Positions 38,283 through 55,155 of a stretch of 64,000 bases of DNA are shown here, piece after piece. The notes beneath the pieces were generated by a model. That model was not told the DNA's origin. It saw only the letters and a list, made by a program, of their open reading frames with translations, and did no database searches. The number at the start of each line of letters is the position of its first letter. The first letter of the stretch is position 1. This DNA is from Krasilnikovozyma curviuscula (taxonomy: Eukaryota > Basidiomycota > Tremellomycetes > Cystofilobasidiales > Mrakiaceae). Location: assembly GCA_014825775.1 (NCBI GenBank), contig MVAQ01000013.1:124001-188000 (forward strand). Direction: 5' to 3'. Made by a program: the position numbers and the translations under genes.

Positions 38283-40069
38283 TTACGGTTTCTTTGCTCC
38301 AGCCTTCTTCGAACGGGGAGGTGTGACTGGACGGCCAACTTGGAATCAGAATCAGTCCAGCTCACAAGCCGCTCTACTAGGACAACGTGGAACACTTACT
38401 GTTGCCGTACGCGTACTTCGCCTTCTTCTCTGCCGGCTTCAGGATTTGGAAAGAACACAATAGGGTCTCATCTACGCTCATCATCGCGCCTGCGTTGTCG
38501 AATTCACCACAGTAATTCGGGGCAGAGAACAGAGTGACCAGCTGACGCTTCGCAAAGAATTCGTAGCCATCTTCGACGACTTGATGAGCACGGCTAAAAA
38601 TAAATAAAAAATGAATCCGTCAGACAAGACACTTTTTATAGGGAAAATGAGATTGGAAGGGCGTACCATATGAGATCCATGTCGTGACGCTGCAAGAATC
38701 TCGACACCACATCTGGGCCGAACGTAAATGACACACCCCTATCATTCTCGCTCCATCCAGTGATATCTTTATCAGGATCGGACCACAGCAGATCACAGAG
38801 AAGACCTATACGATAGACATTTAAAAACACATCAGTTTTCCTTGTGATGTCTCGGCTAGACAGAAAGACAGGGCCACTCACCAGTGTCTGGCACGTCTGT
38901 TGGTCTCATCACGCGTCTAATCTGCTCCATACTCTGGAGGTCTGGAGAAAGTCCACCGTGCACTAAGAAAGAGAGCAAAATGCGCGTTGAGAAGAATGCC
39001 TGATTAGAATGGGGAAACGCCACATACTGGTGAAGATCTTTTCGTCAATGATAGCAGCGATTGGGAGACCTAATTTGGTGCAAAGGAGTCCACCATCCCA
39101 ACGTAAAGGAAATCATTTAGGAAAAGAGATAAAATCAAAGGTCAAGCACTGTCAGTAAGTAATGAGGGCGAAGGGAGCAAACGAGGGATCGTACAGTTAA
39201 AGCAGTCCGTGAAGGTCTTCCAAAGCTTGATGTTGTATCTTCGTTTACCTGCCATTCCATTAAGAGAATCTCGTCAGTAAAAACATCACAAGAGCGCAAG
39301 TTGGAGAAGGAAAACACGCGTACATTCGTCGTAAAAACCGTAAATTCTGTTGATGGAGGCACACTCGTGGTTGCCTCTCAAGATGAAGAAGTTTTCAGGA
39401 TATTTGATTTTGTAAGCAAGCAAGAGACAGATTGTCTCGAGCGATTGCTTTCCACGATCGACATAATCGCCCAAGAAAAGGTAGTTGGCTTCAGGAGGCT
39501 GAGAGGTAAAAGGGGAGCGGTGGCATATTAGCAACGCCTTTCGAACGACAGGGTAAAGGTGCCAACGATACTCACGAAACCACCGTATTCAAACAACCTT
39601 AACAGATCATAGTACTGGCCGTGAATGTCTCCGCATATCTTGATCGGTGCTTCCCTGTTGAGATATTTGATAGAAAAAAAGTTTCAGGGTTATGGAAGGA
39701 GTGCAGCAGAGACGACAGCGAAACGGAAAAGGTAACCAGTCAGTGTGCTGGTCAAGCAATTGAGAAAGCTGTAGGGACGTACAGCTCCAGAAGGATAGGT
39801 TGTGATATGAAGATCTCCCTGGCTCTCGTGCACAAGAATTTGATCTCCCATTCCTGCAACTGCACTGGCTTTCCAGGGCGGTTTCCTCTCACTATCCATC
39901 AAGAGGCCAAAGAAAAGATCCAGAGAGGTAAAAATCAGCGATAGTGTCAGCAAAGAACGAATTTTCCGTCATTCAGAATCGAAAAGCTGGGTTTTTCAAA
40001 AGCCAGCAACGTACCTTCGAGAAGTCGGTCGATCACAGAGTCGAGATCGATGTCTGTTGGTTCAGCCAT
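38283..40069 (-). CDS. GLC7: Protein phosphatase 1 catalytic subunit, copy A (Glc7/Dis2)
   Basis: Exons: 40015-40069, 39783-39891, 39576-39654, 39324-39498, 39195-39248, 39028-39069, 38882-38962, 38667-38805, 38400-38593, 38283-38326; 323 residues. PP1 removes Ser/Thr phosphates with a two-metal centre and takes its specificity from docking subunits. All catalytic motifs are canonical: GDIHGQ, GDYVDRG, RGNHECASINR, KIFTMHGGLSPDLQ, CRAHQVVEDGYEFF, and SAPNYCGEFDNAGAMMS. The C-terminus carries the conserved ITPPR sequence, whose Thr is the Cdk site in this family. This copy is the more conventional of two PP1 genes in the window; the other is at 53550-55155 on the opposite strand. It is very likely the essential Glc7 orthologue. 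Confidence 0.95.
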
Positions 40070-41637
40070 ATTATAGAGAATTCTACAAAAGTTAGAGAAG
40101 ACGTTGTCAGTCAGATATTCCATCGACAAGCAGTCCCCTTTCCCAAAGCAAACACGAAGTTCTTCGTCTGCACGGGTACACCAACGACCTGTAGATTTAG
40201 CCCTGACAACCCCTCTAACGTCCCTGCAGCTCAGAAGACCACTCCTTCAGCTTTATGATGTGTACCGAGGCGGCCAGAAGACCAGACCCAGGAAGTGTGG
40301 TCCTGAATTCTTTTCAAAACGCCTCTTCCTGAGTCCTTCGTCTCCCTCCTTCGCCTTCCCAAACCCAATTTCATGCCTAACATTTGCCTCCAACTAGCAG
40401 CCCAATTGAATCCGTTTATACTCACAGCTTCTTTGGTGTAAGTCGAGGGTGTCTTGAGATTGATGGATTCCAAGAGGCTGGATAGAGACGCGCAGGAGTC
40501 AAAAGAGCAAGGTCCTTCGTTGAGTAAGCCTATTCTTCGCTAGAATCTGAGTTAAACCTAAAGAATAGCGACTAACGTCTGCAGTATGCGAGTGTTGTTA
40601 TTAGAGGCGAGGGTGTTGGCACAATATCGAGGGACGAGGGGGAAGGAAAGTAAAGCCCAGCGAGCACGAAGTAAAAAGGCGGCAGGTTTATCAGCAAAAC
40701 GATTCCCTTTGTCCAAACACATCTAACTGTAATTCCCATCCAACTCGTCTCACTGTACCATTGAAGAGTAACAGAGAGTATTCCACCTGTGTGCAAAGAA
40801 TGTGCAGTGCGTCTGATCCCGAAGGCAGGAAGGTCCTGCGATGAATACGCCCCTCTAGCTCGTCCTTCCCCTCTGTTGCTCCCCAAATCCAACTGTATCT
40901 AACTCTTGTAAATAAGACGGTGGGCACTTACGTGAATAAACCAACTAGCCAAGCTTTGCAATGGGAGAAAAAACTTGGACGCTGGAGGGGATGAGGGTGA
41001 GCGACGACACCAGCCCCAGCGAGCCAGTTGCGAGTCGCAGCAACAAGCAATTTTGAGCGCAACACAGGAAAAAATCAGATTTAAAGAAGCAAAATTTGGG
41101 GCACAGCACACGAGTGAAAGGATTGAATAATCTTGGAGCAAGGTATCAGTAGTATATCGACTATGCATCGAGAGATAGAGAGTTCTGTCCTAGTCGACGT
41201 CGTCGCTTCAGACGCGGGATTCAGTTGGCCGGGTCTTGACGGAGACGTGTCGTCTTTGATGTAATAAAGTAGGTATCAACGTGGAGAAGAGCTATCAAAG
41301 TAGACAGAGAGTAGCATTGGCTGCTCTGGAAGGATTTTGTACCAAAAATAAGTTGCGAAACGCAAAGGTGCGAGGTGGTGGATATCAACAAGCCCTAAAG
41401 TGGGATTCAATATTCAATCGGATTAACACCATCCAGAACATGTTTCTTAGTCCAAGAAGAGAGCTAAAATGATGCCTTTTGATGAGAGAGAAAACTCGAG
41501 AAAACAAGCTCAAAGAGGGTCAAGAGCGGTTGTTGTTGAGTGGTCTTGCGCTGGCTCGAAATATAGAAGCGGCCTCAAAATAGCTTCAAGCTTATTCTCA
41601 ACATCTCTCATCGTTCATTCATGAACATACTACCTAT
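40070..41637. other. 1.57-kb gene-free stretch upstream of PP1-A
   Basis: Contains the PP1-A promoter and the 3' side of the dioxygenase gene. Several open frames of 60-110 codons exist on both strands, but none has recognisable motifs or a coherent spliced model. An unrecognised short gene or long 5' leader is possible. Confidence 0.4.
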
Positions 41638-53549: not shown

Positions 53550-55155
53550 ATGTCCCAACAAGAACCTGAATTCGACCTTGATTCTATCATTGATCGTCTC
53601 ATAGATGGTGAGAAAGACGACTGTTGTCACTCTTCACTCGCTTTTGCGTTTTAACTAACCGGCGCTGCGTTGTTGGATGAGAAGTGAGGGGACATCGCCC
53701 TGGTAAGCCAGTCCAGCTTCCTGACTGGGAAGTCAGAGCTCTTTGCTTGAAGAGTAAGGAGATCATGTTATCCCAGCCTATTCTTTTGGAGCTGTACGTC
53801 CCTTATTCGCAGCTTCTTCTCTCTATCAGACAACATGTTGACCTCTGGCGTCTTCATATACAGGGAGGCTCCTATTAAGATCCTTGGAGATATCCATGGT
53901 CAATACTACGATCTCCTCAGAATGTTTGAATATGGTGGGTTTCCTCCTGAAGCCAACTACCTCTTCTTGGGTGACTATGTCGACAGAGGTAAACAGTCCA
54001 TCGAGACGATCTGTCTGCTCATGGCGTATAAGATCAAGTATCCCGAGAACTTCTTCTTACTGAGAGGTAATCACGAAGCTGCTTCTATCAACAGAATCTA
54101 CGGATTCTACGACGAATGTAGGTCTTTCCCTTTCTCCTCATCAGTAGTGTTGTACTTCTTCCGTATTATGCAATTGGAACATATCAATGTGTTTGCGTTA
54201 CACCCTAAGAATAAAGTCTGAAATTACGGTTCACGCGATTGCAGGCAAAAGGAGATACAGCATAAAGACGTGGAAGACCTTCACGGATACTTTCAACTGT
54301 ATGCCTGTGGCGGCAATAATTGACGAGAAGATCTTCACGAGTGAGTTCTTTCCATCAAACAGTCGCGGCGAGCGGGAACTAAACTTATCTTGCTCGGTTA
54401 TTTTGCTTCTAGTGCATGGAGGAATTTCTCCAGATCTCCAAAGCATGGAGCAAATCAGGCGTATCATGAGGCCAACCGACGTGCCTGATACTGGTAAGAG
54501 AACCAACCATCACTTCAAATCGGCTCATAAAATGCTGAGCTCCTTTCTCCTTTTCTACCTCAGGAATCATTTGCGACCTTCTGTGGGCAGATCCTGAGCC
54601 TGGGCTAGAAGGCTGGGGAGAAAACGACCGAGGTGTTAGCTTCACCTTCGGTGCTGATGTTGTGATCCGATTCTTGCGCAAGCACGACTTGGATCTCATT
54701 TGGTGAGTTTACCTTCTAATCACTTGAAGTTCTTCATCTTCTTTGTCTTCTGCTGTAGCTTTACGAGAGTTGTGGGGGAAGACTCAAAAGCTATCCATCT
54801 AATAATCGCTTGTCGTTTGTTGCATTTCCTCACTGACATATTTGCTACCTCCTTTACAGTCGTGGCCATCAAGTTGTTGAGGATGGATACGAGTTCTTCG
54901 CTAAGCGTCAGCTAGTCACCATCTTTTCAGCACCAAATTACTGTGGTGAATTTGACAACGCAGGTGCGATGATGAGTATCGACGAGTCTCTTTTATGCTC
55001 GTTTCAAATTCTGAAGCCCGCTGAGAAGAAATTCAAACCCAAGCCCTTTGGTAAAGGAGGAAGTTAGTGGCTTCTCCCCTTCTTCATCATTTGGCCGCTT
55101 GCTGAATGCTTTCTATGATCTAGTTACCCCACCGCGCAAAAGTGCTGGAAAGTAA
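53550..55155 (+). CDS. Protein phosphatase 1 catalytic subunit, copy B (diverged paralogue)
   Basis: Exons: 53550-53607, 53685-53793, 53864-54117, 54245-54340, 54413-54493, 54564-54702, 54860-55062, 55124-55155; 323 residues, exactly the length of copy A. GDIHGQ, GDYVDRG, RGNHE, MHGG and RGHQ keep the metal-binding and catalytic residues. Substitutions at normally invariant places include HEAASINR for HECASINR and CRGHQ for CRAHQ, and the segment ADPEPGLEGW replaces the usual DPDKD-type loop. The tail keeps ITPPR. Two introns of copy A, after EYGGF and after TDCFN, are absent here, while exons of 109, 81 and 139 bases are identical in size. If intron 55063-55123 were retained, translation would stop one codon into it. 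Probably an active but specialised PP1. Confidence 0.9.

Follow-up and report, generated by a model that had tools for sequence, protein, structure and literature searches.

Two DUF7928 synthase genes and two PP1 phosphatase genes in mirror order in Krasilnikovozyma curviuscula: a real arrangement with an ordinary history

The closest described counterparts of the locus reported here are NCP1 and NCP2, which elsewhere are genes of the mating-type regions of Cryptococcus and Kwoniella. NCP1 is listed in the pheromone/receptor region of C. heveanensis, and the section on the NCP1 region of this species, Kwoniella heveanensis, names no phosphatase (PMC2873909). Duplicated NCP1 and NCP2 genes are recorded for T. 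wingfieldii, C. amylolentus and C. heveanensis (PMC3280970), and part of a 2025 paper calls them absent in most species (PMC12510652). The second component of the locus is the phosphatase PP1, whose fungal catalytic subunit is GLC7. Excerpts from the literature state that most fungi have one PP1 gene and a few have two, e.g. Schizosaccharomyces pombe (PMC6506691), and that the PP1 studied in C. neoformans is CNAG_03706 (PMC11774493). GLC7 is unmentioned in three of the papers to which NCP1 and NCP2 led in the literature. PMC4206507 and PMC11844451 also came up for these genes, and PMC6730849, PMC5103461 and PMC12595948 contribute nothing further. Here, we analyse a window of 64,000 nucleotides from the tremellomycete Krasilnikovozyma curviuscula (bases 124001-188000 of contig C44, which has 193,006 bases, in a genome of 22.4 Mb and 387 contigs), in which two paralogous genes for family-2 glycosyltransferases (GT2), GT2A and GT2B, are flanked by two PP1 genes, PP1A and PP1B.

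An earlier note on this DNA took the arrangement for a palindromic duplication of a GT2-PP1 block. The genes and their mirror order are real and the history is ordinary: the locus probably arose by two separate local duplications, an old one that produced the GT2 pair and a local copying of PP1, and one palindromic event for the whole is the less likely reading. Of the locus, the GT2 genes are an already described pair, here found in another lineage and duplicated; the pair is present twice in this genome, with one copy flanked by PP1 genes.

The divergent GT2 pair and its relatives

Spliced gene models were built and then corrected by hand against the paralogue; those of GT2A, GT2B, PP1A, PP1B and a dioxygenase contain no internal stops. 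GT2A (43546..47992, minus strand, 13 exons) encodes 1221 residues and GT2B (48823..53011, plus strand, 18 exons) encodes 1029. The two genes diverge from an interval of 830 bases between their start codons (47993..48822), which is possibly a shared promoter region. The models bear out these lengths, the homology and the gene order given in the earlier note, namely PP1(-), dioxygenase(-), GT2(-), GT2(+), PP1(+). In GT2B, DUF7928 (PF25550, E 2.1e-39) is followed by Glyco_trans_2_3 (PF13632, E 4.8e-58). One exon of GT2A matches DUF7928 (E 6.7e-13) and the synthase part is assigned by homology. Both domains were matched in 41 of 41 aligned relatives. Of 879 residues aligned between GT2A and GT2B, 431 are identical, and the two PP1 proteins agree at 261 of 317; in both cases the paralogy exceeds chance.

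DUF7928 matches in the genome amount to five genes, two in the window, two on contig C77 and one on C177. Those on C77, at about 61040-70496 (loci L027 and L028), repeat the divergent arrangement with both GT2 types; between 0.6 and 1.2 kb separate their predicted starts, according to which start is taken for the gene C77p. Its partner C77m is sister to GT2A (support 100/99); identity is 394/641 between GT2A and C77m and 455/644 between GT2B and C77p. The simplest reading is that the GT2 pair was probably copied as a unit. No PP1 match was found on contig C77, and thus GT2 pairs exist without PP1. Other window homologues were not found in C77:50001-81500 (open reading frames of at least 40 residues, E up to 1e-6), and the interval between the GT2 starts gave only chance-level matches to C77. 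The lone gene on C177, at about 78741-83017 (L029), encodes a DUF7928 synthase that is more distant and falls with smut-fungus proteins in a quick tree.

Homologues of GT2B were taken from the best 120 of 2878 matches, a list for which only candidates sharing most words were scored and in which the recognisable taxon names are those of basidiomycetes. The closest of the matches listed are tremellomycete proteins (69-76% identity), including the deposited Ncp1 of Kwoniella heveanensis, and a second group (59-62% identity) belongs to the GT2A clade, barring one metagenomic protein. In a careful tree of 39 of 58 rows, GT2A lies in clade A (97/95), whereas GT2B and the deposited Ncp1 (P0008) both lie in clade B (100/99), which makes GT2B a synthase of NCP1 type; GT2A would be the NCP2 counterpart. 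Forcing GT2A and GT2B into one clade is rejected (difference in log-likelihood, lnL, of 100.6; p-AU 3.4e-15), and forcing the four copies of this genome together costs 52.5 lnL units (p 6e-4). Since clades A and B are shared across tremellomycetes and the forced clades are costly, the GT2 duplication predates the split from the tremellomycetes sampled.

The two types are also neighbours in relatives. B-type and A-type genes carry consecutive tags in Cryptotrichosporon argae, Cryptococcus floricola, Cryptococcus sp. DSM 104549, Kwoniella shivajii and Kwoniella sp. DSM 27419; in Naganishia friedmannii the tags differ by three. In all, tags are consecutive in five of the six species with both types listed and comparable tags. 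This count omits Kwoniella shandongensis (two annotation versions), C. amylolentus (two strains), K. heveanensis (Ncp1 without a tag) and Tremella mesenterica (protein numbers rather than ordered tags). The earlier note had proposed checking gene order in relatives; for the GT2 genes the check returns this adjacency.

A mating-type reading of the window found no support. In this fragmented assembly the single STE3 match lies on contig C50 and the only Homeobox_KN match on C181, apart from the GT2 pair on C44. With STE3 and the homeobox gene on separate contigs, this genome may lack linkage between its two mating-type loci. The GT2B model has two unusual features of its own: the intron at 49850-49908 is of the GC-AG kind (donor GCAAGT) and preserves the reading frame across a stretch that is conserved in GT2A, and a 12-base microexon encoding ISIA is predicted at 52078-52089.

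Fold and likely product of the synthases

Both window GT2 proteins have a GT-A synthase fold with flanking membrane helices, a likeness that they share with the bacterial cellulose synthase BcsA at 12-14% identity. BcsA carries a QxxRW motif and a PilZ domain; in contrast, both GT2A and GT2B have ELNRW, and GT2B has DUF7928 in front and no PilZ match in Pfam. The two proteins are most likely processive family-2 synthases of the plasma membrane, in which two helices precede the GT-A catalytic domain and about five follow it, and their product is probably an extruded beta-linked glycan of the wall or capsule. A chitin synthase identity was rejected: PF03142 (Chitin_synth_2) has no match on C44 or in GT2B, and among the relatives it is matched weakly in 2 of 41 (best E 0.086). 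Chitin synthases are missing from the 50 VIA-align rows shown and present lower in the Foldseek list, which excludes nothing. No solved structure matched GT2B by sequence, and profile A1 returned one chance-level match to solved structures, a cation channel at E 0.25. An NCBIfam search of GT2B gave no match, and no paper in the literature searched mentions DUF7928. By description, the basidiomycete-specific 'chitin synthases' chsb of Pleurotus ostreatus, whose loss is reported in part of one study to thin the wall (PMC13293301), share the basidiomycete range of the names recognised among the GT2B matches listed and offer a lead.

Two PP1 genes of unequal rate

PP1A (38283..40069, minus strand, 10 exons, 327 residues) is a canonical PP1 catalytic subunit, identified by homology and up to 97% identical to other PP1s among the best 120 of 7992 matches. 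PP1B (53550..55155, plus strand, 8 exons) matches PF00149 (Metallophos, E 2e-46) and PF16891 (STPPase_N, E 3.4e-19), is much more diverged from canonical fungal PP1 (GLC7) and adjoins the GT2 pair; no relative exceeds 84% identity among the best 120 of 7993 matches. Exactly 323 residues had been claimed for each gene, a length that holds for PP1B and not for the spliced PP1A. The only PP1-grade matches in the genome are these two loci, and the next phosphatase match, on contig C110, with 55-75% identity in its individual exons, probably represents PPZ.

Within the first 300 residues PP1B differs from PP1A at 52, including C62L, C127A, C155T and A247G. The replaced residues C62, C127 and C155 are invariant in 15 other PP1s aligned. 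When five PP1B states were sought among the 154 PP1 matches fetched, none carried more than one, and single ones occurred (for instance NHEAAS in 4 and RGHQ in 2). Change is strongly asymmetric: with Laetiporus as outgroup, 50 changes are unique to PP1B and 6 to PP1A (p 4e-9), and with four other outgroups the counts are 43-52 and 4-8. To a lesser degree, GT2A also evolves faster than GT2B in relative-rate comparisons (87 vs 48, p 8e-4; 97 vs 47, p 3e-5), so that rate asymmetry is not peculiar to PP1. Polarising the changes over residues 1-300 gave 2 shared, 3 PP1A-only, 46 PP1B-only and 3 different, with too few falling on PP1A for the PP1 duplication to be dated in this way.

The fast evolution of PP1B, with its 50 unique changes against 6, is what a decaying copy without function would also display. 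Such decay is highly improbable, given that the frame is open across 8 exons, that all 12 catalytic and metal-binding positions checked (human numbering) are intact, as they are in PP1A, together with the pocket positions listed, and that the proteins remain 82% identical despite only 39% identity at fourfold sites. The positions listed for RVxF and SILK regulators are unchanged in PP1B. PP1A would carry out the housekeeping work of PP1, and PP1B has most likely kept both its phosphatase activity and its binding to the RVxF-type regulators of PP1A, having diverged under purifying selection towards a specialised isoform. A bolder proposal combines the loss of three cysteines with the intact active site: PP1B might have been neofunctionalised, beside an obligate synthase pair, into a redox-resistant PP1 serving wall synthesis or mating, with GT2A and GT2B as partner chains copied as one. 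We regard this as quite unlikely.

The PP1 tree comprised 64 of the 154 matches (300-345 residues), and holding PP1B with PP1A improved it by 7.4 lnL units. The simplest reading is that PP1A was copied locally and that the copy, PP1B, evolved fast afterwards. The earlier note had suggested comparing trees of the two families: the GT2 duplication proves old and shared with other tremellomycetes, and PP1B forms a long branch whose position is uncertain.

Extent of the mirror and history of the locus

The mirror is confined to genes. By blastn the left half matches the right half in 14 places, all of them mainly on GT2 or PP1 exons (one match crosses a 61-base intron between two exons), and the same holds for all six inverted-repeat pairs. 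The TauD/TfdA-type dioxygenase gene (41638..42990, minus strand, 4 exons, 379 residues; PF02668 TauD, E 2.7e-58) has no counterpart in the right half and stands outside the mirror. Because similarity is mainly exonic and the dioxygenase one-sided, no palindrome beyond the GT2 and PP1 genes, nor any trace of a recent one, is seen by either comparison. The claim of two paralogue pairs in mirror order thus stands, the GT2 genes being head-to-head duplicates, in this gene-bound form. Once a local PP1 duplication is granted, the copy would be expected beyond the GT2 pair and on the opposite strand in about one case in four; the mirror order is therefore weak evidence of a common origin. That the layout is an assembly artefact joining unrelated pieces, as a fragmented assembly of 387 contigs might suggest, is scarcely credible: the GT2 types are adjacent in relatives, and copies as diverged as these should not arise from collapsed or doubled reads.

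Four introns match in position and phase between GT2A (of 12) and GT2B (of 17), and six between PP1A (of 9) and PP1B (of 7). Fourfold sites are identical at 51/175 in GT2A/GT2B (26.3% expected from composition) and at 38/97 in the PP1 pair (26.5% expected; Fisher p 0.106). Dating by such sites was rejected as uninformative, since the cross pairs GT2A/C77p and GT2B/C77m span the same old GT2 split and come near the PP1 value.

The earlier claim can be recast as a single inverted duplication that copied GT2 and PP1 together on the stem of the tremellomycetes, followed by loss of PP1B and separation of the GT2 pair from PP1 elsewhere. The mirror order of both pairs and the undated PP1 duplication agree with such an event, and a fast PP1B orthologue could hide below the best 120 matches. 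It would, however, require several losses, it leaves no trace outside the genes, intron sharing differs between the GT2 and PP1 pairs, and the second GT2 pair lacks PP1; we consider it unlikely. As first stated, the single block duplication is unsupported, the GT2 split being old, GT2 pairs existing without PP1 and the mirror order being weak evidence.

Under the preferred reading of two separate duplications, an old duplication in the tremellomycete lineage would have given a linked GT2A/GT2B pair of the NCP1/NCP2 kind, divergent at two places in this genome, adjacent in relatives and probably once copied as a pair. The neighbouring PP1 would then have been duplicated locally, probably later, with PP1B placed beyond the synthase pair. 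Several observations weigh against this account. On the GT2 side, C77p groups with GT2B at only 82/45, which is insecure; A and B as a tremellomycete-only clade, apart from Agaricomycetes and smuts, have weak support (81/37); tags in relatives give adjacency and not pair orientation; and the predicted fold does not tell which sugar GT2A and GT2B would polymerise. On the PP1 side, PP1B sits on a very long branch (0.86) whose position is uncertain, its grouping in one clade with basidiomycete PP1s is neither supported nor rejected (p 0.427), the rows used include none known to be tremellomycete, and a fast orthologue could sit below the best 120 of 7993 matches, a list in which scoring was again limited to the candidates with most words in common. 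Intron turnover may differ between genes, and the fourfold identities of GT2A/C77p (49/144) and GT2B/C77m (52/147) approach that of the PP1 pair.

It has also been suggested that GT2 and PP1 are kept together by co-regulation or a common pathway. Physical closeness is what speaks for this; the C77 pair without PP1 and the dioxygenase between PP1A and GT2A make it very unlikely. The dioxygenase itself has a next best genome match of 37% identity, and an Rfam scan of the window gave no match.

With tree support, the locus exemplifies an uncharacterised family of DUF7928 synthases in which the two forms stay side by side across tremellomycetes. By fold, the NCP1 kind resembles a polysaccharide synthase, a point on which the mating-type literature is silent in the passages concerned. 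The divergent PP1B, in turn, offers a natural experiment on duplication and change in a fungal phosphatase gene that is usually single-copy.
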